Assembly: GCA_027459485.1 (NCBI GenBank)
Contig: DAIDIG010000004.1
Span: forward strand, 62,001-126,000
Source: Bdellovibrionales bacterium
GTDB lineage: Bacteria; Bdellovibrionota; Bdellovibrionia; Bdellovibrionales; UBA1609
Direction: 5' to 3'
Length of the DNA stretch: 64,000 nucleotides
In this document: piece after piece, positions 34,117 to 48,006 of the stretch
How positions within the stretch are numbered: position 1 is the first letter of the stretch
Layout: every line of letters begins with the position of its first letter
Notes under the pieces: model-generated
The model's database searches: none
Seen by the model: the letters and a program-made list of their open reading frames with translations, nothing else
Told to the model about the DNA's origin: nothing
Position numbers and translations under genes: made by a program

Positions 34117-34264
34117 TTATTTTTCACGGTTGTCGAAAAATCAGACAACGCGCCCATTTTCGACGCCTGTGGATCGACTGATGAGCCCGCAATTCCTAAA
34201 AAGATTTCACGACCGGTACTTTCACGCCTGAGTGTCAAGGCTCTCGTGGTATAACTTTGGCCAA

Positions 34265-35464
34265 ATGCTTAAGCGAAACATGTTTTTTCTGATTGTCGCA
34301 CTGTTTGGACTGACGTTCAGCCCGCTGGCTCTTGGCGAAATTTCTAACCCAAACTCAATTTCATGCCAAGACTATCAGGCCATCGTGAATCGTGAACGGT
34401 TGCAGTCAAACAAATTTCAGGTAATGCGCCAAAAGATATTAGCACTCTGCCGCGAGTCGTGGGTTTCAGGCGAAGAAGATTATATTAAACATTTTGGCGA
34501 GTACACTTGGCAGAGTGCCAATTTTTCCGTTATGTCGAATTTGGCGGAACGCTTTGAGCACAAAGGGTTGTCATTAAGCGTTTATGATATTTTAAACTAT
34601 CCGCGACTCAATGAAATTCTCGACGAATGCTACCCAGGCAAAAGTGTAAGCGCAAAATTTCAACAATGGTATTTTAAAGAAAGTCTCGCGTATAATGATG
34701 TCGTGTCTTATGAAGACGGAACGGCTGCTGGAATCATCGCTGTCATATACGGACCGTTGGCATTCAGCAAATATTTGAAAACTGTGCCGGCGATTGCGCG
34801 TGCGACTGAATATGTTACGTCATTGCCGGCATTCGCGCGGATTGCGACTATGCGTTCGTGGGTCATTGAAACTTTTCCTTTTATGGCGAAGACTTGGGTT
34901 AAATACACGGTTTTATTCGGCGGCACAGCAGCCGGTACGGCTGCCTACGTAGGCTGGAAGCAAATTCACGCCGCCAATAATGGCGCACCGGTATATGTGC
35001 CGAATGCTTTCAGCTCATCCTCGCGTAAAATTTCGAAAGAGTCAGCGCACCCCACGGCAATGGAAATCATAGACGGTATCACCGCGCCTGACCTGTTTTC
35101 ATCCGATCTGTCGGGGACTTCTGCCGCTATTGAACAAGCGACTCAACAGTACGGCAACGCGCACGGCTCGATGCCGCTGCCAAATAGTGACCCCTTTGGC
35201 GATTTGACATCGTCAGTTAAGCCTACACTGGACGATTGCAGGCAAAGCATTCAAACTTACGACAATGATCCAGTATCGGATAATTTAACCAATTTGAAGA
35301 ATCGATGTGAAGCATACTTTCACGACGTCAGTTACAGTTTGGGATTATTAAAATATCCGGCCGTGCGTTGCATCGCCTTAAATGACGGCATCACGGTAAA
35401 GTTAAAGGATCAATTCGAGAGTATTGTGCGACTATTGCCGGCGGCCGCGCTCACTCGTCGCTAA
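34265..35464 (+). CDS. Exported or membrane protein of unknown function
   Basis: A 399-residue protein with signal peptide (MLKRNMFFLIVALFGLTFSPLALG), then a mature part with six Cys and two further hydrophobic stretches (GTAAGIIAVIYGPLAF and YTVLFGGTAAGTAAYVGW) that could be membrane helices. Not recognised. ATG 34265 or the next in-frame ATG five codons on; neither has a clear ribosome site. Its last 14 bases overlap the 3' end of the convergent coiled-coil gene. Confidence 0.72.
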   Translation: MLKRNMFFLIVALFGLTFSPLALGEISNPNSISCQDYQAIVNRERLQSNKFQVMRQKILALCRESWVSGEEDYIKHFGEYTWQSANFSVMSNLAERFEHKGLSLSVYDILNYPRLNEILDECYPGKSVSAKFQQWYFKESLAYNDVVSYEDGTAAGIIAVIYGPLAFSKYLKTVPAIARATEYVTSLPAFARIATMRSWVIETFPFMAKTWVKYTVLFGGTAAGTAAYVGWKQIHAANNGAPVYVPNAFSSSSRKISKESAHPTAMEIIDGITAPDLFSSDLSGTSAAIEQATQQYGNAHGSMPLPNSDPFGDLTSSVKPTLDDCRQSIQTYDNDPVSDNLTNLKNRCEAYFHDVSYSLGLLKYPAVRCIALNDGITVKLKDQFESIVRLLPAAALTRR

Positions 35465-36113
35465 GTTTTTTATATTTATTATAGGTTGAGTTCGATTCGC
35501 GTGCCTTCGCGGTCCACTTTGTCGCTTCGACTTCGTAGTCTTTGCGCTTGGCCACCCACTTACTCTTTTCATTTTGCGCTTGCGACTGTTTATTTGCGAG
35601 CTCAGTTTCAAGCTGCGACATCTGTTGCACTTGAGTGTCCCAGTTTTTTTCTTCAGTCTTTGCTTGATCGACCATTTTATCATAGGCCGTTAGATTATCT
35701 TGCCGCTTTTGACGATTGGCTTGAAGCTTTGCCAAATATTTTTGAACTTCGTCGATCTGCTTATCTTCTTTGGCCATTTTCATTTGCTCTTTCGCCTTAA
35801 GAAGTGCGATCTGGTGCTCCATAGCGGCTAGAGCCTTCTTGTTTTTATCGACATTCTTCGTATTGTAAATCAGCTGCTTTTTCATTTTTTCAAGTTCTTC
35901 AATCGCCTTTTCCGCCTGGGCGACGTTTTTGTTCACAATATCGAGATTATCCTGATACTGCTTGCGGTTGAATTCGCTGTTTTCAGCGTTGGTTTTCAGC
36001 TGATCCAGCGCTTGTTTGGTGTCCGTTTTCGCTGAGGCGGATTGGGGCGAAATAAAACCGCTCGCCAGAATGGCCAGTGCCAAAAAGCCCGAACTTTTTA
36101 TTATAGATTTCAT
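35451..36113 (-). CDS. Periplasmic coiled-coil protein, motor operon
   Basis: A 220-residue protein with signal peptide ending ASA, and thereafter an almost unbroken heptad-rich coiled coil full of Lys, Glu and Gln (NKNVAQAEKAIEELEKMKK, LLKAKEQMKMAKEDKQIDE). It is the last gene of the Agl/Glt-like operon, starting one base after the preceding stop with GGAGGAG inside that gene's 3' end. A periplasmic rod spanning to cell wall or outer membrane would fit the complex; that is inference. Confidence 0.82.
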   Translation of the reverse strand: MKSIIKSSGFLALAILASGFISPQSASAKTDTKQALDQLKTNAENSEFNRKQYQDNLDIVNKNVAQAEKAIEELEKMKKQLIYNTKNVDKNKKALAAMEHQIALLKAKEQMKMAKEDKQIDEVQKYLAKLQANRQKRQDNLTAYDKMVDQAKTEEKNWDTQVQQMSQLETELANKQSQAQNEKSKWVAKRKDYEVEATKWTAKARESNSTYNKYKKLSDE

Positions 36114-36114
36114 C

Positions 36115-38655
36115 TTATGCTCCTCCGCTAGCTGAATCGCTGCTTATTGTTCTCGCCGTACGCGGGTTTTTAGGGCAATTATTTCGGAGCGTCGACCGGT
36201 ACGATCCGATTTCATCTTGCCAATATTCTCCGTCAAAATCCCAGTGCATGATTTTCTGGGGCTTCACGTTGGACGGAATCCGCAAAGTCGCCGCCGTTCG
36301 CCCGCCGCTGACTTGGTAGCGAATATTCTCACCGCTGCCGGCATAGATTTCATACCGTAAAAACTCATTGCCGTCGAAAATTTTCGAGAGTCGCTTGTTC
36401 AAACCCTGTAACTCAGCCATCAATTGATCGCCCGCATCGTGAACGAGTGAATATTTCTTTTGCTCAATTCGGGCAATGGCCATGGCCTTCATTTTTAAAT
36501 ACCCCTGCCGCGCTTGCTCATACAGCTGGCCCTCGAATTTTTGAAATTCAAGCAGGCGATGTTCGTTTCGTTCTTCAGCCATCCACTCGTTGAGGTATTG
36601 CATGTTTTTCGGATGTTTGTTAATGGCGGCAATATCCCGTTTGAGCTTCAGCACACGGCCATTGGTGCGGTTCGTTCGGAACTTCACTCCGGCCTGATCT
36701 CGTTGTAGGATGCCATAAACGTAACTGTATTGGCTCGCTTCGTCCTCGAGATTGTTAACCGCATCCTGATCGTTCGTGAAACCACGCTGACGGGCGATTT
36801 CTCGAATGACTTGGTAAGGCAGACCGTCGACGTCGCGCCCACTTGAACCGCCGCGAATATAATTTTTCACAGTGTTGTAATACGCCAGGGAATTGTCACG
36901 TCCGTTCAAGTAGCTTTGGATTTGCTTTTGCCAACCGCGATATTTTTGTTCCATCAATTGAAGCGCCCGATACGCGTCACCGTATTGGCAGATGTTGATA
37001 TAACCGATCGTGCGCACGACCCACGATTCGGGCATGTAAACCATACGAAAATACGGCGAGTGGAGCGAGTACATGTTGCCGATCGCTCCCGCGGCGTCAT
37101 CGAGATTCAATTGCGTCCACCCCTGCTCGATGAGAGCTTCGATCCAGAGAGGATGATCTTTCGGCACTTTCATGTATTCATTCTCAGCCAGTTGATAGCG
37201 CCCCTGCATGAAATACATGCGGGCGAGATTCATGGCGATAAGCGCCTTCAGGTCGTCACTCTTGTAGCCGGTCTGATTCATCCAACCGCGCAAATTGGTT
37301 AAGGCCGCCTCGGCTTGCTTCACGTGCTTATCGCCGTACAGACCGATCGCCCGGTAGTATTGCGCGTCGGCATAATGCGGGCTCGCCGTACTGACTTTTT
37401 GCCCCTCGTCGCTCGCCAATTTGTAATTGCCGTGTTCGTCGGCGTAGCGCGCGATCACAAAATGCAAATTATCTTTCGACGACGCCGGGATGAGCACCCG
37501 ATTTTTGATGCTCAACAAAACCGGTGCGACTTGATCGTCATATTCTTTCGGCAAATTATCGACAAGTGCCGCCACCGCGTCGGGCGTGTATTCGACGTTT
37601 TCAGTTTTGACCACGCGAAGAAGCCGCGTGACCGCTTCGGTATGAAAGCCCATCTTATGGGCGCACATCCCAAGATCAAAATTCGACTCTTCAGTGTATT
37701 GCGGGTTTTTCGCGAGTTCAGAGAGCAGGCCGGTCACAACGTGGCACTTATTGCCTTTTTCGTAAAGGAGGGTCGCCGCCAGCATGAGCAATTGCTCGGG
37801 CGAGAATTCTTTGATCGGCTTGAGATCTTCGAGCGGCTTATTGGTGCCCATCGAGAGGTCAACAGCTGCGATTCGTTCGTGCGTGACCATCTGGCCGAGC
37901 TTGAATTTACCATTGTGCGGCCATTCGGCTTTGGCGACGTGTTCAATTTTGGCCGCGATGACTTTTCGAGTTTCTTTAAGTGACGGCATCGCGGGCGACG
38001 GCAGCGTTTTGACAGCCGTGTAGTGACTCAAGTCGACAATCTGCGTGCTTGGCATGAATGAGCCTGCCGATATTTGCTTTTCTGTGCCGATATCGAGCCG
38101 TGGGATATTTTTGACTGAAATGGTGATGACGTGTCTCTTCTTTTTGATTTTTTGCTTGAGTGCGAACACCGGCACGCCGTTTTTTGTTTTCGGCAATGCG
38201 GTCGTCCCGACGCGGGCGGGGACGACGACTTGAACCGCGTTTTGGCCGGCGGCATTTCGAGTGGCATCGATGATTTGCGAAAACTGCTTTTGGGCTGGAG
38301 TGAGCGGAGCCTGATTCGCGGCCGTCGTGTTTGCAGCCGCAGCCGCCGGTACGGTGCCCGCAGCCGTTGCTGACGCTTGGCCCGAAGTTGCGGGGCTCGT
38401 TGATGCCGAAGTCCTAGCGCCCGAGGCAGTTCGAGTTGCGACCGGTTCTTCGCTGTGACCGCGCCATGCGCTCCAGCGGTTTTTCATCGCGTTTGCCCAT
38501 TCGTTTGCCTTTTTCTCTGTAGTCGCTTCAAGCTTCTGCCAGGATGACGTCCAGTGGCGGCTTTGTGATGAGAAGTCGGCGGTTTCCATCGCCCGGCCGA
38601 ATGCCATCGCGCTCACTATCAAAACCGTGCACGCGATCAAGAGATTTGTTTTCAC
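36115..38655 (-). CDS. Large exported TPR protein, motor operon
   Basis: An 846-residue exported protein: signal peptide 1-20, an Ala/Thr/Ser-rich linker (~70-115), a mid region with basic KQKIKKKRH, then TPR-like helical repeats (~300-600; LLYEKGNKCHVVTGLLSELAK, NLARMYFMQGRYQLAENEYMKV, LIEQGWTQLNLDDAAGAI). The C-terminal ~60 residues (LRIPSNVKPQKIMHWDFDGEYWQDEIGSY) form a distinct beta-type domain. It starts with GTG preceded by GAGGAGAG. It resembles the large periplasmic TPR proteins accompanying Agl/Glt machines and probably scaffolds outer-membrane and periplasmic parts. Confidence 0.85.
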   Translation of the reverse strand: MKTNLLIACTVLIVSAMAFGRAMETADFSSQSRHWTSSWQKLEATTEKKANEWANAMKNRWSAWRGHSEEPVATRTASGARTSASTSPATSGQASATAAGTVPAAAAANTTAANQAPLTPAQKQFSQIIDATRNAAGQNAVQVVVPARVGTTALPKTKNGVPVFALKQKIKKKRHVITISVKNIPRLDIGTEKQISAGSFMPSTQIVDLSHYTAVKTLPSPAMPSLKETRKVIAAKIEHVAKAEWPHNGKFKLGQMVTHERIAAVDLSMGTNKPLEDLKPIKEFSPEQLLMLAATLLYEKGNKCHVVTGLLSELAKNPQYTEESNFDLGMCAHKMGFHTEAVTRLLRVVKTENVEYTPDAVAALVDNLPKEYDDQVAPVLLSIKNRVLIPASSKDNLHFVIARYADEHGNYKLASDEGQKVSTASPHYADAQYYRAIGLYGDKHVKQAEAALTNLRGWMNQTGYKSDDLKALIAMNLARMYFMQGRYQLAENEYMKVPKDHPLWIEALIEQGWTQLNLDDAAGAIGNMYSLHSPYFRMVYMPESWVVRTIGYINICQYGDAYRALQLMEQKYRGWQKQIQSYLNGRDNSLAYYNTVKNYIRGGSSGRDVDGLPYQVIREIARQRGFTNDQDAVNNLEDEASQYSYVYGILQRDQAGVKFRTNRTNGRVLKLKRDIAAINKHPKNMQYLNEWMAEERNEHRLLEFQKFEGQLYEQARQGYLKMKAMAIARIEQKKYSLVHDAGDQLMAELQGLNKRLSKIFDGNEFLRYEIYAGSGENIRYQVSGGRTAATLRIPSNVKPQKIMHWDFDGEYWQDEIGSYRSTLRNNCPKNPRTARTISSDSASGGA

Positions 38656-38693
38656 GACACTCTCCTCGAGCCGGGGCTCACGCCAGGCTCAAC

Positions 38694-39572
38694 TTAAAAG
38701 AAATACGTCACGCCCATTAAAAAATTAGTCGTATTGGCTGTATCGCTTCGCTTCGTCAGACCCGGCTGAATGCTGTTAATGGGATAGTTACCATACGACA
38801 CGACATTTTCGTGATAGTAACGGTTTTGCAGATCGGCCTGGATGGCGAAGTGCTTCGAGAAAAAGAAGTACTGAACAATATCGAAGCCGTACGCAAATAC
38901 GTTTTGAGTTGGATCCTTTTGCAATTGATCTTCAAGTTGTTCGTAAGTTTCGACACCTACGAACGGAGTGACTTGCATGTCGAAGTAAATAATTTTTTTA
39001 CCGAGAAAACTCATTTTCGCGTAGAAGGGAACCCAGTTAAAACCGACACCGACGAAGTTTAGATCTCTGTTGAAATCCGGCCGAATGCCGCCGCCGCTAC
39101 TGTTAAACATAAAGTCTTTTGTCGTTTGGCTGTCGTGTAAGTCGGCCTTATCTTCGAAAAGTTCGACTCCGTAACGTTCGCTGAAGTAATAGTTGAGCTT
39201 GAGTTCATAGTTGTAACCGGTGTTATAGGGGTCGTTGATGAGGGGGCCGACCAGAGCTGAAAGCGCGAATCGTTTGGCCTTCGTGTACTTTCTGTTTTGC
39301 ACGACACTAAAGTCCGTGTCTTTCGGGGCCCAATATTTTTTTTCTAATTCACCCATGTTGAGTTTGTCGCTTTGATCCGTTGGCGACTGATTAGTTGCAT
39401 TCGTCGATGCAGAATCGTCTTGCGCGACTTGCTTCTTGCGTTTGCGGTGCCGGGTGTACTGCGCTGATTGCGCAAAAGTCGCCTGTGCGGCGAATGTGAC
39501 CGGTGCCACGATGAATGCTCCCAATAGGATATTCATCAAGATGCGATTGCATGTTGTGCTCTTAGATGTCAT
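38694..39572 (-). CDS. Outer-membrane beta-barrel protein, motor operon
   Basis: A 292-residue barrel protein of the kind shared by myxobacteria and Bdellovibrio: signal peptide (~1-35), a charged N-terminal linker (RHRKRKKQV), then strands ending with a terminal aromatic (GVTYFF). The segment LSALVGPLINDPYNTGYNYELKLNYYFSERYGVELF is typical. AAAGGAG precedes the ATG. It lies 12 bases after the FHA/TonB-like gene. In the Myxococcus Glt system outer-membrane barrels complete the trans-envelope path; a like role is inferred here. Confidence 0.88.
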   Translation of the reverse strand: MTSKSTTCNRILMNILLGAFIVAPVTFAAQATFAQSAQYTRHRKRKKQVAQDDSASTNATNQSPTDQSDKLNMGELEKKYWAPKDTDFSVVQNRKYTKAKRFALSALVGPLINDPYNTGYNYELKLNYYFSERYGVELFEDKADLHDSQTTKDFMFNSSGGGIRPDFNRDLNFVGVGFNWVPFYAKMSFLGKKIIYFDMQVTPFVGVETYEQLEDQLQKDPTQNVFAYGFDIVQYFFFSKHFAIQADLQNRYYHENVVSYGNYPINSIQPGLTKRSDTANTTNFLMGVTYFF

Positions 39573-39584
39573 ACAAAGTCTCCT

Positions 39585-41078
39585 TTAGTTAATCGCCTTA
39601 AACATAAACGGGTACGTGACGAGCACCCGAGTGCCGCCCTTTGGTTGCGGAAAGTGCCAACTCGCCAGTCGGCGAAGAATGCACCCTTCAACCATGGCAT
39701 TTCTCAACGTTGTAATGCCAATATGTTGATCTTGAACCAACCCGGCCGCATCGATCGCAAACTTCACTTGAACTTTACCGTAGAGATTCGGATTCGCGCT
39801 CAACTGCCGTTCATAGCAATAGCGAATTTCGCCGAGATTCGCGTTGATGACCCGCGCGATGACGTCTTTATCCAAGCCGCCTTCGACTTGGGTTTCTTCA
39901 TCGAGAATGCCCACCGTGCCGCTACCAGCCCCACCCGAGGCGAGACCGCCGAGACCGGCAACGCTTCGACCGCCGCCAAGACCGGCGGTACCAACCCCGC
40001 CGATTTTATACGTGCCACCGCCGCGACCGATCTTTGTGTGAATCCCTTGAAGGCTGCCAATATTGTTCACAGCCGTCGCCGGGCCGGTATTGAGATCGTC
40101 GGCAAAATGGCCAAAGCCCGCAATCATCGGGCCGTTTTTGTTGGCGCGTTTGGCGATCTTACCGAGAAGCGCGTTGAGCTGACTCAGTTTCAAATGCTTG
40201 ATGATTTTCGTTGAGGAGCTTGCGGATTTCACTCGGACGGGCGCGTGAAATGAGTTCGAAGAAGCCGGTGCGCGGGCCATCAGCACTTTGCGCATCTCGC
40301 TCGCCTGCTTTTGCTCTTTGCGCATCAGCTTTGCGTCGAAAACCATGCGTGTGTACTTATCATCCGGTTTGATTTGCTTCAGTGAATCGTCTGGTCTTTT
40401 CGGTACAGCAATAATGATACCCAAAACGAGTACCATAAAAACGAGTGCCGTCAGAAACGGAGCACGCGTATCGGAACTCGTGAGGAGCGTCTTCCAGCCC
40501 CCCTCGTGCGCTTTCAAAACGTCCGTCTTGACGAGACGTTGAACAACGCGAATCGAACCGAGTTGTGACTCAACCGGTTCGCCGCTCTTCGGCGCCGCCA
40601 AGGTTTCAACTTTACCCTGAACTTCGATTCGAAATGCCTGTTTCGGGTCTAAGAGTTCGGTCTTCACGATCCGGTCGTTTTTCGTGACGACAACTTGATG
40701 GTACATGCGATTGGCTTGTTTGTTAGGTTCACCGGCCCACGACTTCTCTGAGCTAAAAAGGGATTTTTCAATCGCTCGTGGAGTAAATTTAAGCGTGTGC
40801 CCGCCGACAATGATGGTGATCGGCTGCTGAATCGTCTCGCGAACGACCGGGTTCTTATCGAGCCATGTGCCGCTTGGGCTACCGGCGTCGCTGATCGTCC
40901 AGTTCTCACCGTGGTACTCGACGTAAGCGTGAACGTCGCTGACTTCGTCGCCCAGCAAGCGGACGTCCGCACTTCGCGACCGCCCGAAAACCCAAGTGCG
41001 CCCGCTCGGTCGAAACCGGTGGCGCCCGACGAACTTCCCTTTATAATGATGTTCAACTTCGAGATCGGTTCTCTTCAT
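39585..41078 (-). CDS. FHA-domain, TonB/AgmX-like trans-envelope protein
   Basis: A 497-residue protein with architecture like Myxococcus GltG. A cytoplasmic FHA domain (~25-100; VFGRSRSADVRLLGDEVSDVHAYVEY, SPSGTWL) would bind phosphothreonine. A membrane helix follows (~208-226), then a periplasmic linker with a Gly-rich stretch (~340-390). The AgmX/TonB-type C-terminal domain (~395-497) includes GEIRYCYERQLSANPNL and a VEGCILRRL segment. It would pass force from the ExbB/ExbD-like motor across the periplasm, with phosphorylation sensed on the cytoplasmic side. The ATG overlaps the upstream stop by four bases. Assignment to GltG is by architecture, not by alignment. Confidence 0.9.
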   Translation of the reverse strand: MKRTDLEVEHHYKGKFVGRHRFRPSGRTWVFGRSRSADVRLLGDEVSDVHAYVEYHGENWTISDAGSPSGTWLDKNPVVRETIQQPITIIVGGHTLKFTPRAIEKSLFSSEKSWAGEPNKQANRMYHQVVVTKNDRIVKTELLDPKQAFRIEVQGKVETLAAPKSGEPVESQLGSIRVVQRLVKTDVLKAHEGGWKTLLTSSDTRAPFLTALVFMVLVLGIIIAVPKRPDDSLKQIKPDDKYTRMVFDAKLMRKEQKQASEMRKVLMARAPASSNSFHAPVRVKSASSSTKIIKHLKLSQLNALLGKIAKRANKNGPMIAGFGHFADDLNTGPATAVNNIGSLQGIHTKIGRGGGTYKIGGVGTAGLGGGRSVAGLGGLASGGAGSGTVGILDEETQVEGGLDKDVIARVINANLGEIRYCYERQLSANPNLYGKVQVKFAIDAAGLVQDQHIGITTLRNAMVEGCILRRLASWHFPQPKGGTRVLVTYPFMFKAIN

Positions 41079-41323
41079 TTCACATACCTGATCGATCGCT
41101 TTATCGCGAGATCGAAATTTTGGTTCACGTCATACAAGGGTAAAAATTTAATTCCCTTTTTCTGTTGCACGTACGAGCCGTCCGGTGCGCGCGCGATGCC
41201 GTCGACGTCGGTCGAATCGAAATCCACTGACTGCGTCCGCCGGTAAACCGTTCGCTTTTCAACGGTGCGCGCAAACGCGACCGCTCCGGTTAACAAGGCC
41301 ACAAACAAAATTGTTTTTTTCAT
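41075..41323 (-). CDS. Small exported protein, motor operon
   Basis: An 82-residue protein with signal peptide MKKTILFVALLTGAVAFA and a basic, polar mature part of 64 residues (RTVEKRTVYRRTQSVDFDSTD, ending FDLAIKRSIRYVK). Not recognised. It is locked into the operon by four-base overlaps on both sides, so a structural or assembly role in the envelope machine is likely. Confidence 0.82.
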   Translation of the reverse strand: MKKTILFVALLTGAVAFARTVEKRTVYRRTQSVDFDSTDVDGIARAPDGSYVQQKKGIKFLPLYDVNQNFDLAIKRSIRYVK

Positions 41324-42225
41324 TGCTGACCTCCGCTCTGCGCCTTTGATTTGGCGGTGTCCGCCACCTGAGTGATTTTTTCGAGCGCACTGATTTTTGC
41401 GTTTATATCAATATCGTGATCTTCAGCCGGTATGCGGCTGCTTCGGGCGAGATCCGCGGCGCGTTGGTATGCACTAAGAGCAGCCGGGTAATTTTTTACT
41501 TGCTCGTAGAGCGACGCGAGCCGCAGACGGTACCCGATACTTTGGGGGTCCGAATTAACCGCGTGCTCATAGGCATCAACAGCCCGATTCGTCTTTTGCA
41601 GGACGATGTCTGTTTCACCGAGGTTGGCCCAAGTTGTTGCAGAGCCTGGTTCGAGAACGACAACTTTTTGAAGTTCGTCGGCGGCGTCGCTGTACTTTTG
41701 CTCGCGAATATCGACCCGTGCGAGATACATACGAGCCTCGGTTAAATCGGGTTCGTCATTGACCGCCGTTCGAAATTCACCATTGGCCGAAGCTAGATCT
41801 TTCATCGCCAAAAACACTCGCCCTTTTTGATAGTGGAGCATGCCGAAGCTCGGGGCTTTTTCGAGCGCGAGACTGATCATCCAAAGAGACCGTGGGTAAT
41901 CGTGGCGGTCGTAAGCGGCGAGGCTCAGATAAAAGGCTCCCCAAGGTTTGGTCGAAAAGCGCTGCGCCAGCACATCGCCGATTTGCTCAAGTCGCGCATT
42001 TTTGTTGAATTGTTCACACGCATTGCCTTCATTCAGAAGCTGTGCGAGGCCGTCATGGCGCCAACTATGTGCACCGACCGGGCAATCGTCTTCGCTTACA
42101 CCGTTACCGCTGCGGGGAGAAAATGTTTTGAGCGAGTAATTTTTGTCTGTGAGATTATTGAGCGACGGCGTCGTCGCGCAACCGGCGAGACCTGCACAGA
42201 TCGCGACCAAGAACAAACGCTTCAT
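41320..42225 (-). CDS. TPR lipoprotein, motor operon
   Basis: A 301-residue lipoprotein with lipobox LAGC at residues 13-16. TPR units are plain in the centre (FGMLHYQKGRVFLAMKDLASANGEFRTAVNDEPD, ARVDIREQKYSDAADELQKVVVLEPGS, NLGETDIVLQKTNRAVDAYEHAVNSDP). Probably on the periplasmic face of the outer membrane. Comparable in type to the TPR lipoproteins (for example GltE) of Agl/Glt machines. Four-base overlaps with both neighbours. Confidence 0.88.
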   Translation of the reverse strand: MKRLFLVAICAGLAGCATTPSLNNLTDKNYSLKTFSPRSGNGVSEDDCPVGAHSWRHDGLAQLLNEGNACEQFNKNARLEQIGDVLAQRFSTKPWGAFYLSLAAYDRHDYPRSLWMISLALEKAPSFGMLHYQKGRVFLAMKDLASANGEFRTAVNDEPDLTEARMYLARVDIREQKYSDAADELQKVVVLEPGSATTWANLGETDIVLQKTNRAVDAYEHAVNSDPQSIGYRLRLASLYEQVKNYPAALSAYQRAADLARSSRIPAEDHDIDINAKISALEKITQVADTAKSKAQSGGQQ

Positions 42226-45200
42226 GTGCCCACCTTTTTCACGAGTCGCGGAAGAATCGGAGAGAGCGGCTCAAAATGAAATTGGCTACCGTCGTTCGGC
42301 AGAGGCTGATTCATTTTTTTCAAATCGGCCTGCAAAGCCGCGACAAGGTCATCCCCGACGTCGTATTGTTTCGCCGTCTGGTAGGCCTGCATTTTCGCTT
42401 CGACCCCTTTTTCTTCCATCGGGATCGCCAGTTTTTCCATCTGATCGCGAAAAGCTTGCGCTTCGTTATCCGGCACGCCTTTCGGCAGCGGCATATTGCG
42501 AAGGCCGTCGCTGTAGGCGAGGTAACAGTCGCCGAGCTCACGCATCGCTTTGACCGCCACTTCCGGGTCGCCGTAGCGAGCCGCCGACTGATACGCGATC
42601 TGCGCCGTACTCAACTTCTGCGTTTTCATCATGAGCACCATTTGCACTTTATTCAAGTGAGTTTTTAGACTTTGATTTTTAAACTCCTGGGCTAAAATGC
42701 GGGCTTGTACCAATCGCGCTTGTGCCAGCGCCGACGGAGTTGCTCCATCTTTGCGTTCTTTGAGCAATTCTTTCGCGAGCTTGAACGCCTTTTTATTATC
42801 GCCGGCATGAAAGGCCTTTTTTATAAAATAAATTCTCGCCTCGCTCGCTTCAGGTTGGTGATTTAAAGCGATAATTTGGTGTAATATTTTTTCGTGCGCG
42901 CGCGGATTTTCATCGTGTGCGGTCATTTGATTGAGCGCACTTAAGGCATGATTAGCGGTATCAATTGAATGTGACGTCGCCATTTCTTCATAGATAGGCC
43001 GCGCCAACGCGGTCTTGCCGTTTAAGTCGTAGAAATCGGCGGCGAGCAACATCCACTTTTCTCTCGATTTGGGGTCCGCTTTAGCTAACTTTTCGACGAC
43101 ATTGGCCGCTTCTTTCAGTTGGCCCATGCTTTCATACGATTGCGCGGCCTTGAGAAGAGCGTCGAGGCCGTCCTTCGTATTCGGGTACTTGTCATAATAG
43201 CGAACCGCCGCGGCCGCGCCGGCCATGACGTCTCCGCTCTTGTAATCAAGGTCGATCGCGTTGAACAGTGCCTTTTGGGCGAGAGCAGAATTTGGGTTCT
43301 CAGCCGCGAATCGTTCATACGATTTAATAGCACGCTTTAATTTGCCGCTTTTCTCATAACCTTGCACAATCAAGAAATAAGTTTGTTCGTAAATCGTGTT
43401 CAACTTGGCGTATCTATCTTTATCTTTGCACGAGTTGCGCAGCGCCAATGAATAGGCGCGAAGAGTCGGGTATTTCTTTTGAATATTGAGGATATCCATA
43501 TAGAGATCCTGCGCTTTTATGCCTTTATCCGTTTTTGCGTATTTTTGCCCAAGCTCTTTGAAAATCGGTGCGGCCTGGTCATAGTGGTGCTTTTGGTAAG
43601 AAATAAAGCCGAGCTCAAAGCGAACGTCGAGAATAAATTTACCCTTCGGGTCTTTCGTCAGATACTGCGCGGCCAATTGGCGAAATCGGGCTTCATCCGT
43701 GTCACTCCACTTTTCATTGACGGCCTTCTGCAAAGAAGCCAGAGCGAAATAGCGTGAGTCATGGCCCATCGCTTTGTCTTTAGTTTGAGCGCCGACGATC
43801 GCGTATTGATCGCTTGCTGGACGAAACTTCTGTCGTTTGAAAAGCACATTGGCGTAAACGAAACGCGCTCGATTGGATTCATGTGAATTCGGATTCGCCT
43901 TCAAGTAAATTGCGAACGCCTTTTCGGCATAGTCGGCGTACTGGGTGTCTTTGGGTTGCTTGTTCCAACGGCGCAGCCATTGATTAGCAAAGCCGAGCGC
44001 CATCTTGTTAAAGGCCCGGCGACACAACTGGGGAGCCGTGACAACCGTTGCAATTCCAGCTTTTGGACTGTCCGATGTTTGATCAGTCGCAGTGCCGTCA
44101 TCAGCGCTATCGTCACCAAATTGTTGAGCAAGCAAATTCGTGTCGGAATTTACGGAGCCCGGCTTTTGCGCGGTCGACCAGCCGCTTTCAGGCTCGCATA
44201 TTTTATCGAGCTGCGAGAGATCGTCGATCACATCGTCGCGCTTACCGAGGTGATCGGCGGCGTTCATTATATAAACATATGCAAGTGGCGTGAGATTCGA
44301 TTTCGGTTTCTTGTCGATAAGGTCTGAAAGGAGGGTGATAATATCCTGATCGCGGCCATGCGTCTTGTACAGTTCGGCGAGTCGCATGATGACCGGAGAT
44401 ACATCAATGTCGCCGGCCTGTTCGGCGAGATACGCGTAAGCCCCACTTGCCGGGCGCGAGTCTTCATAAAATAGTGCCAAATCGAAAAGCGCTTCGCGCC
44501 GCAGATCGAGTCGCGCATCGATGTTGTGTTTTTTCACGTAGACGCCGTATTTAATCACATCTTCGAGCTCGTGGATGGCTGAATTAGAATCTCGCAAATT
44601 GTAATACGTCCATGCGGCCTTATAAAGGCCGTAAGCATAGACCGTCGCATCTGGGTATTTTTTGATCTCGAGAAAATATTTAAGAGCAGCCTTAAAATCG
44701 TGACGTTGAAAGTTGATTTCACCAAGCGCGAGGTTCGCATCGGGCATCAAGGCCGAATTTTGAAAATCGCGAACGAGTGTCATGTAGAGTTGTTCGGCCC
44801 GATCGTCATTGGCCAACTGTTGATTGGCGAAGGCATCGTTAAAAATCACCAAGTCTAGCTTTTCATAGTCCGGGAATTTTTTTATAATGTAATCGTAGAC
44901 CGCGATCGCCTTTCGAATCTGTTTTTTTGACGCCGCTGATTTCACAAGTTTCGGGACAACGCGGACAACATCCGCCGAATCGCGGTGCATCTCGAGAAAG
45001 CGATCTGTTTTCGCGCGCCGCACATAAAGCTCAGCCAGGCGGAACTGCAGCTCAGGCTCAAGCGGCGTGCCGCGATACCTGTTAAGAAGTTTATGAATTT
45101 GCGCGATGGCTTTTTTTTCAGAGTCAGTAATTAAAAGTTCAGCTTTCAGTTCGCGTATGTCATTACCCTGCTCGTCGCCTGGCTTCATTTTAAGCGACGA

Positions 45201-45311
45201 AAGTGGGTCGGGTGTAGAACCTTTGTCATCAGCGTAAACTCTTCCGCTAACGGCTGTGATGGCCGCCACACTGACACTCAAAAGGCAAATGATAATAAAC
45301 TTTCGACCCAT
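42222..45311 (-). CDS. Very large periplasmic TPR protein (AglT-like type)
   Basis: A 1029-residue exported protein with signal peptide ending RVYA and TPR-like repeats through most of its length (LQFRLAELYVRRAKTDRFLEM, NLALGEINFQRHDFKAALKYFLEIKKYPDA, RFELGFISYQKHHYDQAAPIFKELG, KGIKAQDLYMDILNIQKKYPT). Its size and repeats resemble the large TPR gliding-motility proteins of the AglT/GltD kind. It lies ten bases after the GYF-PilZ gene and overlaps the TPR lipoprotein gene by four. Likely a periplasmic scaffold. Confidence 0.87.
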   Translation of the reverse strand: MGRKFIIICLLSVSVAAITAVSGRVYADDKGSTPDPLSSLKMKPGDEQGNDIRELKAELLITDSEKKAIAQIHKLLNRYRGTPLEPELQFRLAELYVRRAKTDRFLEMHRDSADVVRVVPKLVKSAASKKQIRKAIAVYDYIIKKFPDYEKLDLVIFNDAFANQQLANDDRAEQLYMTLVRDFQNSALMPDANLALGEINFQRHDFKAALKYFLEIKKYPDATVYAYGLYKAAWTYYNLRDSNSAIHELEDVIKYGVYVKKHNIDARLDLRREALFDLALFYEDSRPASGAYAYLAEQAGDIDVSPVIMRLAELYKTHGRDQDIITLLSDLIDKKPKSNLTPLAYVYIMNAADHLGKRDDVIDDLSQLDKICEPESGWSTAQKPGSVNSDTNLLAQQFGDDSADDGTATDQTSDSPKAGIATVVTAPQLCRRAFNKMALGFANQWLRRWNKQPKDTQYADYAEKAFAIYLKANPNSHESNRARFVYANVLFKRQKFRPASDQYAIVGAQTKDKAMGHDSRYFALASLQKAVNEKWSDTDEARFRQLAAQYLTKDPKGKFILDVRFELGFISYQKHHYDQAAPIFKELGQKYAKTDKGIKAQDLYMDILNIQKKYPTLRAYSLALRNSCKDKDRYAKLNTIYEQTYFLIVQGYEKSGKLKRAIKSYERFAAENPNSALAQKALFNAIDLDYKSGDVMAGAAAAVRYYDKYPNTKDGLDALLKAAQSYESMGQLKEAANVVEKLAKADPKSREKWMLLAADFYDLNGKTALARPIYEEMATSHSIDTANHALSALNQMTAHDENPRAHEKILHQIIALNHQPEASEARIYFIKKAFHAGDNKKAFKLAKELLKERKDGATPSALAQARLVQARILAQEFKNQSLKTHLNKVQMVLMMKTQKLSTAQIAYQSAARYGDPEVAVKAMRELGDCYLAYSDGLRNMPLPKGVPDNEAQAFRDQMEKLAIPMEEKGVEAKMQAYQTAKQYDVGDDLVAALQADLKKMNQPLPNDGSQFHFEPLSPILPRLVKKVGT

Positions 45312-45321
45312 AACCTAGCGT

Positions 45322-46146
45322 TCAACCCGCTTTCGTAAATGACTTTAAGAACTTCTGCGTTTCATCGCTCAACTGCTTAAATTTAAGCCCGTATTTAATC
45401 GGAGCATTGCGATTGCGCAGTTCGCTGACATATTCTTTGCTTACCACTTCGCAAATCGCGTTAAACGGCGGCACACCGTCACCCGGCTTGAAGTGCAAAT
45501 ACAGTTCTTGCCCGGGCAAGATCATGGCATTATCCATCAGTACACCCGCGCCGCCTTCGCTGATCTCGACGGATTTACCCTTCCAAACTTTTTTATTGTC
45601 ATGGACAATGATCGTGCCGCCGTATGCCACTCGGCGGTAACGACGTCGAAAGAACACTTCGCTAATCTCGGGCATCGAAGATTCTTTTAATTTTTTAAGG
45701 CTCTCTTTTGAAAAGTCTGGAATTTCAGCAATGCGTAACCAAGTATCTAGACCCGAGTGCCAGGCGAAGTCGAATTCGAAAACAGCCCCCTGTTGGAGCA
45801 TTTTCACAACGTCTGCAAATGTAAACGGCCCGAATTTATTGTCACCCTTTAACACGAACCACTCGCTTGGCTGGTCCCCCGCATTTCCCTTCCGGTTTTC
45901 TGATTTCTTCGAGGCCGCTTCTTCCGGCTCGTCCCTTTTTGACTGGGGCGGAGCCTTCGGCTTTAGCATTTTTACCTTTTCGGCGAGCGCCGGGTGATCG
46001 AGAAAGAGAATCCAGTCGGCTTTGCTTTCATCGTAAATGTAATCAAGTGGCGAGAGAGTTCCTTGAGAGACGAACTGAACGATTTCGTCGATCGAATATG
46101 GGCCCATTTGTTCAGAAGAGTGTGACACATAAAATTTATCTTGCAT
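45322..46146 (-). CDS. GYF-GYF-PilZ cytoplasmic protein
   Basis: A 274-residue protein with two GYF_2 domains (~1-55: GPYSIDEIVQFVSQGTLSPLDYIYDE; ~95-150: FGPFTFADVVKMLQQGAVFEFDFAWH) joined by a charged linker, then a PilZ domain (~165-270). PilZ motif 1 is RRRYRR; motif 2 is EISEGG, with Glu in place of the usual Asp/Asn. It may bind c-di-GMP. GYF domains bind Pro-rich peptides; the Pro-rich tail of the adjacent motor protein (KTPPPPKPR) is an attractive partner. ATG 46146 is chosen over 46161 because GGAG lies six bases upstream. It stands between stator and scaffold genes and could gate the motor. Confidence 0.88.
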   Translation of the reverse strand: MQDKFYVSHSSEQMGPYSIDEIVQFVSQGTLSPLDYIYDESKADWILFLDHPALAEKVKMLKPKAPPQSKRDEPEEAASKKSENRKGNAGDQPSEWFVLKGDNKFGPFTFADVVKMLQQGAVFEFDFAWHSGLDTWLRIAEIPDFSKESLKKLKESSMPEISEVFFRRRYRRVAYGGTIIVHDNKKVWKGKSVEISEGGAGVLMDNAMILPGQELYLHFKPGDGVPPFNAICEVVSKEYVSELRNRNAPIKYGLKFKQLSDETQKFLKSFTKAG

Positions 46147-46222
46147 GCAATGCTCCATCATTTATCTGGCATTCCAGGTCTCCTTATCGGGTTTCTCGGC
46201 GACGGGCTAAATAGGATACGGG

Positions 46223-46735
46223 CTAGTCTTTGGTCATGACTGCGAGCTTCACGTCGTAGTAACCGGCTAGCATAGATGTATACATGATCTTTTTGAGCAC
46301 CGAGTATGGCAACGTTCGATCGATTTGCATGAGCACTTTTCCGTTAAAGTCGACGGTGTCGTTAACCTTCGCGAGATTTTTTTGGCTGACCGCACGTTTG
46401 TCTAGTTCTTCATAGAGGGGCCGAATAAATTGCGGGTCGCGGGCATCTGTTATACTGGCGGGGAATCGGCCATTGTTTAGGTCGGCGACTTTTTGATTTT
46501 CAACAAACAGGGCGTCTTTCGACACGATCACTTTCAAAACGTCGACCGGATCGGTCGGCGACGTCGATTGTGGCAGTCGCAGCTGGCCGCTTGGAGTGAT
46601 GTTGACTGGGCTCGTGGAGTAACTTTTCAGCAGAAACACGAGTAGGATGACGAACATGTCGACCATCGACGTGATCTGAATCTTAAACGCTGAGTTGCGG
46701 TTATCGAGATATTTTTTAAAGCCTCGGCGTTTCAT
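46223..46735 (-). CDS. ExbD/TolR-like stator subunit 2
   Basis: A 170-residue protein with one N-terminal membrane helix carrying the proton-conducting Asp (ITSMVDMFVILLVFLLKSY) and a periplasmic domain. This fits AglS/AglQ of the Myxococcus gliding motor. With the TolQ/ExbB-like protein and the other ExbD it would form a proton channel. It lies nine bases after stator subunit 1; 76 bases separate it from the GYF-PilZ gene. Confidence 0.93.
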   Translation of the reverse strand: MKRRGFKKYLDNRNSAFKIQITSMVDMFVILLVFLLKSYSTSPVNITPSGQLRLPQSTSPTDPVDVLKVIVSKDALFVENQKVADLNNGRFPASITDARDPQFIRPLYEELDKRAVSQKNLAKVNDTVDFNGKVLMQIDRTLPYSVLKKIMYTSMLAGYYDVKLAVMTKD

Positions 46736-46744
46736 GTTAGAGTC

Positions 46745-47287
46745 CTAGCTCCCCACGTTTGCGAAAATCACATTCGGAAAAAGTTGCAACTTACTCGGAT
46801 CAATCGGCACCGGGTCGCTATCGAATGACGCTTGCACCACCGGGCTCGGCTTCTGGCGAACTTGGTCCATCACATGAACCAGGTCGTCAAATGAAACATC
46901 GTTGTCAGGCAAAAGTTGAAGCGACGAGATTTCGGGGTGCTCGGCTTTAATTTGCTCGGCTGCAACCAGTAGCCCGCTCATATCAAAAGCACCGTTCTTA
47001 TTGGCGACCGCGATACGCTTCACGCCACCTTTTGGCGGAGTGACTTCAAACGTAAAGCCATTCGCTTTTGAAACTTTAAGAGTCACCGTCGTTTCAGGCT
47101 TCGGCGGATTTTTCATCTGGCTCTGATTGACGACTTGCGGAGTCGGCGACTCGATCATTTTAATTTGCACGAACGCCACACTTAGCAGAAGCATCGGCAC
47201 CACCGATACGATGATGTCGAGAAAAGGTGCCAGGTTCAGTTCGAACGTCGCATCCGTTGTGCGAGTTCGTCTGGTCCGCATTCTCAT
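46745..47287 (-). CDS. ExbD/TolR-like stator subunit 1
   Basis: A 180-residue protein with a basic N-terminus (MRMRTRRTRT), a membrane helix with the key Asp (LNLAPFLDIIVSVVPMLLL) and a periplasmic ExbD fold. Paralogous to the next gene, as AglQ and AglS are in Myxococcus. The ATG overlaps the motor gene stop by four bases. Confidence 0.93.
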   Translation of the reverse strand: MRMRTRRTRTTDATFELNLAPFLDIIVSVVPMLLLSVAFVQIKMIESPTPQVVNQSQMKNPPKPETTVTLKVSKANGFTFEVTPPKGGVKRIAVANKNGAFDMSGLLVAAEQIKAEHPEISSLQLLPDNDVSFDDLVHVMDQVRQKPSPVVQASFDSDPVPIDPSKLQLFPNVIFANVGS

Positions 47288-48006
47288 GCAACCCTCGGTT
47301 TGGGCGGCGGCGGAGTTTTGCCCTTGGCCACCATTTCGGGACGCATCCCATTCGGGTAGACGGTGTCGTGCGCAAACGGAACATAGCCGCGGTTTTTCAT
47401 AAATTCGATCACTTTATGAGTGTGCAAATCTATTTCAGACAGAAGTTTCGTTTGTTTGGCGTGTAAGAACGAATACAGAAACATCGTCGGAATGGCGACC
47501 ATCAACGCACAGGCGGTCGAGGTCATTGCGATTGAGATACCTTGCGCCAGAAGAGTTTGCTTTTGCGACACGTCTGCGAAGCTCACGGCTTTGAACGCCA
47601 CGATCAGCCCGCAAACCGTACCAAGAAGACCGACCAACGTGACGACGTTTGCCACCATCGCAAGGTGACCCAAATTCTTTGAAACCTTTGGGCCCACTTC
47701 ACTGGCCGCGATATCCAAAGCGTCGAACATCGCTTCTTCTTCGCGATCGGCTCGTTCCAAAATTCGTTTCACGACGTAAGCGAGCGGCTTTTTCTCGTTC
47801 GCTCCACAAAACGTGACGGCCTCTTCGATTTTGTCCTGCTCGAGCATGCGCATGATCTGCTTCATAAATGTCTGCGTCGGGAGTGCGAGATCGAAATACA
47901 ACGCTTTGAATCGGTCAAATATAAGGTAGAGACCGAATAGGCCGACGCTACCAATCGCGATCTCGCCGATTTTAAAATCTACGAAAAATTTGAGTACGGC
48001 TTCCAT
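47284..48006 (-). CDS. aglR: TolQ/ExbB/MotA-family motor protein (AglR-like)
   Basis: A 240-residue membrane protein with three helices and the family signature regions (NVVTLVGLLGTVCGLIVAFKAV and GISIAMTSTACALMVAIPTMFLY). It forms the proton channel with ExbD-like subunits. The C-terminal tail ends in a Pro-rich KTPPPPKPRVA that is not usual in TolQ and could bind the GYF domains of the downstream protein. AAAGGAGT precedes the ATG. It is the first gene of an eleven-gene operon. The symbol follows the Myxococcus name and rests on neighbourhood; Tol or Exb naming would be equally possible from sequence alone. Confidence 0.9.
   Translation of the reverse strand: MEAVLKFFVDFKIGEIAIGSVGLFGLYLIFDRFKALYFDLALPTQTFMKQIMRMLEQDKIEEAVTFCGANEKKPLAYVVKRILERADREEEAMFDALDIAASEVGPKVSKNLGHLAMVANVVTLVGLLGTVCGLIVAFKAVSFADVSQKQTLLAQGISIAMTSTACALMVAIPTMFLYSFLHAKQTKLLSEIDLHTHKVIEFMKNRGYVPFAHDTVYPNGMRPEMVAKGKTPPPPKPRVA

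Follow-up and report, generated by a model that had tools for sequence, protein, structure and literature searches.

An Agl/Glt-type motor operon of a Bdellovibrionales bacterium as the probable counterpart of Bdellovibrio Bd1473-Bd1482

The stretch of DNA considered here (the window, 64,000 nucleotides) corresponds to positions 62001-126000 of contig C4 in the 2.75-Mb assembly of a Bdellovibrionales bacterium, and carries an operon of eleven genes for an envelope machine of the Agl/Glt family. Synteny, best hits and trees leave very little doubt that this operon is the orthologue of the agl/glt operon Bd1473-Bd1482 of Bdellovibrio bacteriovorus HD100, one of four agl/glt operons known there and on record as Bd1473-Bd1483 (Lambert 2010, PMC2797640). 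On the sequence comparisons the gliding motor of Myxococcus has its direct counterpart elsewhere. The kind of system is thus already known, and two features look new: the shift of an acidic residue in AglQ and the conflict between the trees of the motor and of the transducer.

The operon follows the HD100 sequence at 1.392-1.404 Mb gene for gene, the syntenic units being g4, g1-g3, g5 (with g6) and g7-g11 (numbering of Table 1). The HD100 locus tags were assigned by us and not taken from the annotation. The assignment rests on a gene order that agrees with the one published for Bd1480 (aglQ), Bd1481 (aglR), Bd1482 (PilZ) and Bd1483 (MIDAS lipoprotein); MglA likewise sits at the place expected for Bd3734. 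The resulting pairs are g11 with Bd1473, g10 with Bd1474, g9 with Bd1475, g8 with Bd1476, g7 with Bd1477, g5 and g6 together with Bd1478, g3 with Bd1479, g2 with Bd1480, g1 with Bd1481 and g4 with Bd1482. Identity to the assigned orthologues is 41% for AglR (over 240 residues), 37% for AglQ, 43% for AglS, 28% for the GYF-PilZ protein, 42% for the outer-membrane protein, 33% for GltD and 31% for GltC. The protein assigned as Bd1478 (1246 amino acids; locus L075:11619-15359) is a fusion of GltD and GltE, which are separate proteins in the window: g5 aligns to its residues 8-945 and the g6 profile to residues 1018-1232 (E 8e-29). This argues that GltD and GltE work together, and the notion that GltE is missing from Bdellovibrio was rejected. 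In the Bd0828-type clusters of loci L269 and L270 a long GltD (1279-1298 amino acids) was observed and no separate gltE was found, possibly reflecting another fusion.

The same gene set recurs in nearly the same order across the Bdellovibrionales, and a motor of the window type was detected in 116 of the 141 Bdellovibrionales genomes (best E <= 1e-75); therefore the operon is not a product of chance. This motor type is missing from a number of Bdellovibrionales genomes that are small or reduced (G166, G259, G189 and others).

The Agl/Glt core complex of Luciano et al. (2011) consists of AglR, AglQ and AglS together with GltC, GltD, GltE and GltG. Of its features the window shows a MotA/TolQ/ExbB ring protein linked to two ExbD/TolR proteins that each have a membrane Asp, a GltG with an FHA domain, one transmembrane segment and a TonB-like tail, and GltC and GltD. 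From the expanded complex of Myxococcales and Bdellovibrionales there are GltF (the same protein as CglF) and a barrel of the GltA/B type. A preliminary description of this DNA had proposed such a kinship, with Tol-Pal and TonB-ExbB systems as the alternative, and the kinship stands. That an energiser of the Tol-Pal or TonB-ExbBD type was misread as Agl/Glt is extremely improbable: taken alone, AglR does match TolQ and ExbB best among solved structures and NCBIfam models, but it scores far under the cut-offs (TolQ 60 against 221 bits, ExbB 44 against 206 bits) and the motor falls outside the clades of the other MotA/TolQ/ExbB families. Moreover, two ExbD-like genes stand beside a full glt set in clear synteny with Agl/Glt clusters, and Pfam and NCBIfam scans found no TolA, TolB, Pal or TonB receptor within the operon. 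Cut-offs, tree and partners thus reject a Tol-Pal or TonB origin at the sequence level.

The source genome contains eight MotA/ExbB genes and four agl-type motor loci, namely the window operon and those at C4 39-50 kb, on C3 and on C9, and it also encodes MglA (65% identity) and MreB. The cluster at C4 39-50 kb, outside the window, is fuller and comprises two barrels, GltC, D, E, F and G, and AglR, Q and S. It corresponds to Bd0828-0838, so that an assignment of the window cluster to that type was rejected. The NCBIfam equivalog models of M. xanthus GltG, GltC and CglF rank first for the window proteins, yet the scores remain under the cut-offs (172 of 650, 107 of 450 and 28 of 90 bits), and the second cluster reaches 259, 184 and 54 bits with the same models. 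M1, the gliding motor of M. xanthus, falls with the second cluster in the AglR tree (93/96). The window motor groups first with Bd1481 and its relatives (100/98) and next with the C3 motor of its own genome and M2 (95/88); constraining the window-type motors with M1 was rejected (approximately unbiased test, p-AU 0.0005). Two rows of this tree, Mx72670_M2 and Mx72670_C9, are probably mis-framed open reading frames with very long branches and were given no weight, the conclusions being drawn from the CA023 M2 row. The window type forms its own clade in the GltD tree (100/100), opposite the Bd0828-type and Myxococcota GltD (89/93), and adjoins the Bd0412/Bd2368 type in the GltG tree (99/98). The earlier name of gliding-motor operon is too strong. 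The subtype suggested at the same time holds in so far as the gene order and the coiled-coil gene g11 are lineage-specific, but it was already on record as Bd1473-Bd1483.

Published work on the HD100 operon speaks for a role at surfaces. The favoured reading, held with moderate confidence, is therefore that of a proton-driven, envelope-spanning machine which would move surface attachments and help the cell to travel on surfaces or through biofilms; the movement we infer. Insertions in Bd1481 (aglR) and Bd1483 impair predation on biofilms and not on lawns. Bd1480 is expressed more strongly once cells have spent four hours on a surface, and less strongly in mutants of Bd0367, a synthase of cGAMP and c-di-GMP (cyclic dinucleotides) that is needed for gliding, and Bd1482 was earlier proposed as a c-di-GMP receptor for gliding. 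A machine serving a stage of predation (attachment, entry or exit) and not surface travel is improbable, even though two sister operons have their peak within the prey cell (Bd0411-0421 at an early stage, Bd2368-2377 at exit) and the expression of Bd1476-1481 changes at the shift to early predation, though downwards, falling on entry into prey. Both insertion mutants, in bd1481 and in bd1483, continue to form halos on lawns, and a bd1483 deletion mutant invades normally.

In M. xanthus both the interaction of AglR with GltG and the need for Asp28 of AglQ are experimental. By analogy, an AglR ring with an AglQ/AglS axle would use the flow of protons via Asp24/Asp26 to move or rotate. AglR would engage GltG, and by way of its TonB-like tail GltG would hand the force to GltF and, in the periplasm, to the TPR proteins GltD, GltE and GltC; the force would continue through the outer-membrane barrel to the cell surface; this path from AglR to GltG and outwards is suggested because of the two-hybrid and mutant data of M. 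xanthus. For the g11 product, AlphaFold2 predicted a single continuous helix of 188 residues (residues 32-219; mean predicted local distance difference test, pLDDT, 84), about 28 nm long at 1.5 A per residue, which may act as a rod across the periplasm. The g11 alignment holds 15 rows, and no match was found in Myxococcus or in the three other agl clusters of the genome.

The GYF-PilZ protein g4 offers a candidate control point. For a profile of its family the PDB gave a single sequence match, to the GYF domain that GltJ carries in M. xanthus (7z3c, E 1.4e-4), and the predicted structure of g4 (pLDDT 77) matches the PilZ domains of the motility regulators YcgR (PilZ with c-di-GMP) and MotI/DgrA. 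The C-terminal tail of the window AglR is rich in proline (PPPPKP; TPPPPKP), and a PP pair occurs within the last 20 residues of AglR in 68 of 89 window-type motors vs 3 of 37 paralogues. GYF domains generally bind proline-rich peptides, and YcgR and MotI act on MotA. The proline pair, the ligand habit of GYF domains and the PilZ domain together suggest a clutch on the motor under the control of a cyclic dinucleotide: the GYF-PilZ protein may dock on the AglR tail and gate the motor in response to the nucleotide. A GYF-PilZ-like gene was also observed beside Bd0828-type clusters, on the opposite strand (L059:4831-5538, L067, L267, L268 and L270), which makes it a recurrent partner of agl clusters in the order.

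Several points weigh against surface movement under such control. The PilZ domain of g4 has Glu in place of the canonical D/N of [DN]xSxxG, and family f27 has the GYF-PilZ protein yet is without the PP tail of AglR. M1 is closer to another cluster of the genome, as said, and M2, which among the characterised motors of myxobacteria stands nearest, is required neither for motility nor for sporulation. Luciano et al., who described four expanded core complexes in Bdellovibrio, preferred Bd0828-0838 as its gliding machine; the bd1483 deletion gave no invasion defect; and the window operon is known as sequence, the experiments cited being those on HD100 and M. xanthus. The alternative is an Agl/Glt-family machine that serves no locomotion: it would move polymers at the surface or anchor them, or would remodel the envelope, like Agl-Nfs on the Myxococcus spore coat, gliding being left to the cluster at C4 39-50 kb. 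This alternative is rather unlikely. In its favour are the grouping of the motor with M2 and not M1, the higher scores of the second cluster with the GltG, GltC and CglF models of M. xanthus, the example of Nfs, in which a Glt-like complex is proven to serve a purpose other than motility, and the regulation of Bd1473-1483, which differs from that of the other three operons. Against it stand the lowered biofilm predation of the Bd1481 insertion mutant, the surface induction of Bd1480 alongside the gliding-linked cyclic-dinucleotide phenotype, and a GltD tree in which no specific grouping with NfsD was found.

A survey of the membrane Asp in 89 distinct window-type motors (the window and loci L281-L370) showed an Asp in AglS in 89 of 89 rows, a few of which are duplicates. 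In AglQ it was found in 23 of the 89, the other 66 having Ala, Ser or Gly. All 66 AglQ proteins without the membrane Asp have an Asp six residues earlier, where the 23 that keep it have Asn (22) or Ser (one); outgroup AglQ has Asn and Asp at the two positions. A slippage of the alignment is unlikely, the flanking L-A-P-x-L aligning without gaps in both types. The rows are related and the tree requires at least two changes, so that the coupling rests on few events and not on 66. It is tempting to speculate, with more reserve than for surface movement, on an asymmetric axle: AglS always with its proton-conducting Asp, the acid of AglQ moved six residues towards the N-terminus (N..D to D..A/S/G, in at least two changes), and the motor an AglQ/AglS heterodimer with one proton site, or with one displaced, the motor trio being moreover an exchangeable cassette. 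In M. xanthus the substitution D28N in AglQ abolishes proton conductance, and it has been called an open question (PMC9389320) if, within the 5:2 motor, AglQ and AglS each pair with themselves or with one another; a literature search for AglQ/AglS heterodimers found nothing. A natural AglQ without the Asp, its acid apparently displaced beside an invariant AglS, makes the homo- or heterodimer question testable by residue swaps.

The second feature that looks new is the disagreement between motor and transducer, that is, between 46223-48006 (AglRQS) and 42222-45311 (GltD) of the window. The AglRQS tree nests the genus of the window, along with four further genomes from the same family, with families f4 and f27 (100/99 to 100/100), and monophyly of the family was rejected (p-AU 1.5e-35). 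The GltD tree places the window's family on one side, weakly (53), and grouping those same family members with f4 and f27 was rejected (p-AU 9e-9). The simplest reading of these sequences would be a horizontal exchange of the motor trio between families; an old duplication followed by different losses could also lie behind the conflict, but is less simple. As part of the cassette idea, the genus of the window apparently carries a motor of the f4/f27 lineage, with both Asp residues, ahead of transducer genes that belong to its own family. The motor genes and gltD lie on different contigs in f27 and in several genera of f1.

The orthology carries the expression and mutant data of Bdellovibrio over to a wide and mostly uncultured order. 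At the same time it cautions against calling every agl/glt operon a gliding operon: four agl-type motor loci occur in this genome, and the one in the window is not the nearest relative of the gliding machine of Myxococcus. What deserves to be followed up is the swapped residue of AglQ and the exchange of motors.

The eleven consecutive, co-directional open reading frames run from 48006 to 35451 on the minus strand (Table 1). All were confirmed in place and strand, and their domain make-up, as first described, was borne out by Pfam and NCBIfam. The preliminary description had further assumed one transcript with mostly 4-base overlaps. Such overlaps occur at 4 of the 10 junctions, which from g1 to g11 measure -4, 9, 61, 10, -4, -4, -4, 12, 38 and 1 bases; a single transcript for all eleven genes is plausible from this spacing. 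There are 209 bases between g1 and the next gene upstream, and a promoter scan gave no more sites than shuffled sequence. The Pfam ExbD scores of g2 and g3 are 46.8 and 46.5 bits, D24 (AglQ-like) and D26 (AglS-like) being the helix Asp residues. The assignment of g5 to GltD was made by blastp to Myxococcota GltD and by trees. For g6 the match to the GltE model NF033758 (E 1.3e-7) is below the cut-off and other TPR families score above it; TPR, lipobox and position fit GltE. An alignment of g7 with GltF-type proteins of Bdellovibrionales and Myxococcota showed common F, G, P and Y residues. For g8 the FHA domain (PF00498) scored 40 bits, NF033768 111 bits, above its cut-off, and the GltG model NF033760 gave E 2e-50, below its cut-off. 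The g10 protein is conserved in relatives. An open reading frame of 410 codons on the plus strand (34232-35464), with no Pfam or NCBIfam match, converges on g11 and overlaps it by 14 bases.

Table 1. Genes of the Agl/Glt-type operon in the window, in order of transcription
Gene	Position	Strand	Codons	Assignment and supporting match
g1	47284..48006	-	240	AglR-like MotA/TolQ/ExbB motor ring protein; PF01618 (MotA_ExbB) 83.5 bits, E 1.4e-23
g2	46745..47287	-	180	AglQ-like ExbD/TolR protein; PF02472 E 3.7e-12; helix Asp24 kept
g3	46223..46735	-	170	AglS-like ExbD/TolR protein; PF02472 E 4.8e-12; helix Asp26
g4	45322..46161	-	279	GYF-GYF-PilZ cytoplasmic protein; GYF_2 x2 and PilZ (Pfam)
g5	42222..45311	-	1029	GltD-like exported TPR protein; TPR matches, GltD trees
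g6	41320..42225	-	301	GltE-like TPR lipoprotein; lipobox-like LAGC
g7	41075..41323	-	82	GltF/CglF-like small exported protein; NF033764 E 2.1e-6
g8	39585..41078	-	497	GltG-like: FHA, transmembrane segment (about 203-221), AgmX/PglI (TonB-like) C-terminus
g9	38694..39572	-	292	Outer-membrane beta-barrel (GltA/GltB/GltH type); TIGR04565 OMP_myx_plus 66 bits, cut-off 60
g10	36115..38655	-	846	GltC-like exported TPR protein, GTG start; NF033756 GltC E 1.2e-30, below equivalog cut-off
g11	35451..36113	-	220	Exported all-helical protein, particular to this operon type

Among known systems the operon Bd1473-Bd1483 of HD100 has the same genes as the window in nearly the same order. Apart from the fusion of GltD and GltE, it differs in that the GYF-PilZ gene of the window, unlike that of HD100, lies between aglS and gltD and encodes two GYF domains, and in that the helix Asp of AglQ is kept in the window and replaced by Ala in HD100. 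The VWA/MIDAS lipoprotein gene Bd1483 adjoins the operon in HD100 and in genome G148 and is not beside that of the window, where the best homologue in the source genome (C3:125268-126401, 43% identity) lies far from the operon. With respect to the M. xanthus gliding machine (M1 with G1 and G2), the window carries the seven-gene core defined by Luciano et al., with g6 as the candidate GltE, and in addition GltF and a barrel; the M. xanthus machine has several barrels and the window operon one, together with the extra GYF-PilZ and helical proteins. A full-length GltJ was not found in the source genome, which gave only GYF and C-terminal-tail matches. The nearest myxobacterial motor in the AglR tree is M2 (MXAN_3003-5), and within the 16-20 kb fetched around it no gene matched the other glt-type profiles. 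The Nfs spore-coat machine of M. xanthus (G3) contains proteins of the GltC/D/E/F/G types homologous to those of the window; it borrows AglRQS, and in the trees of GltD and GltG it stands, unlike the window, on the side of the Myxococcota.

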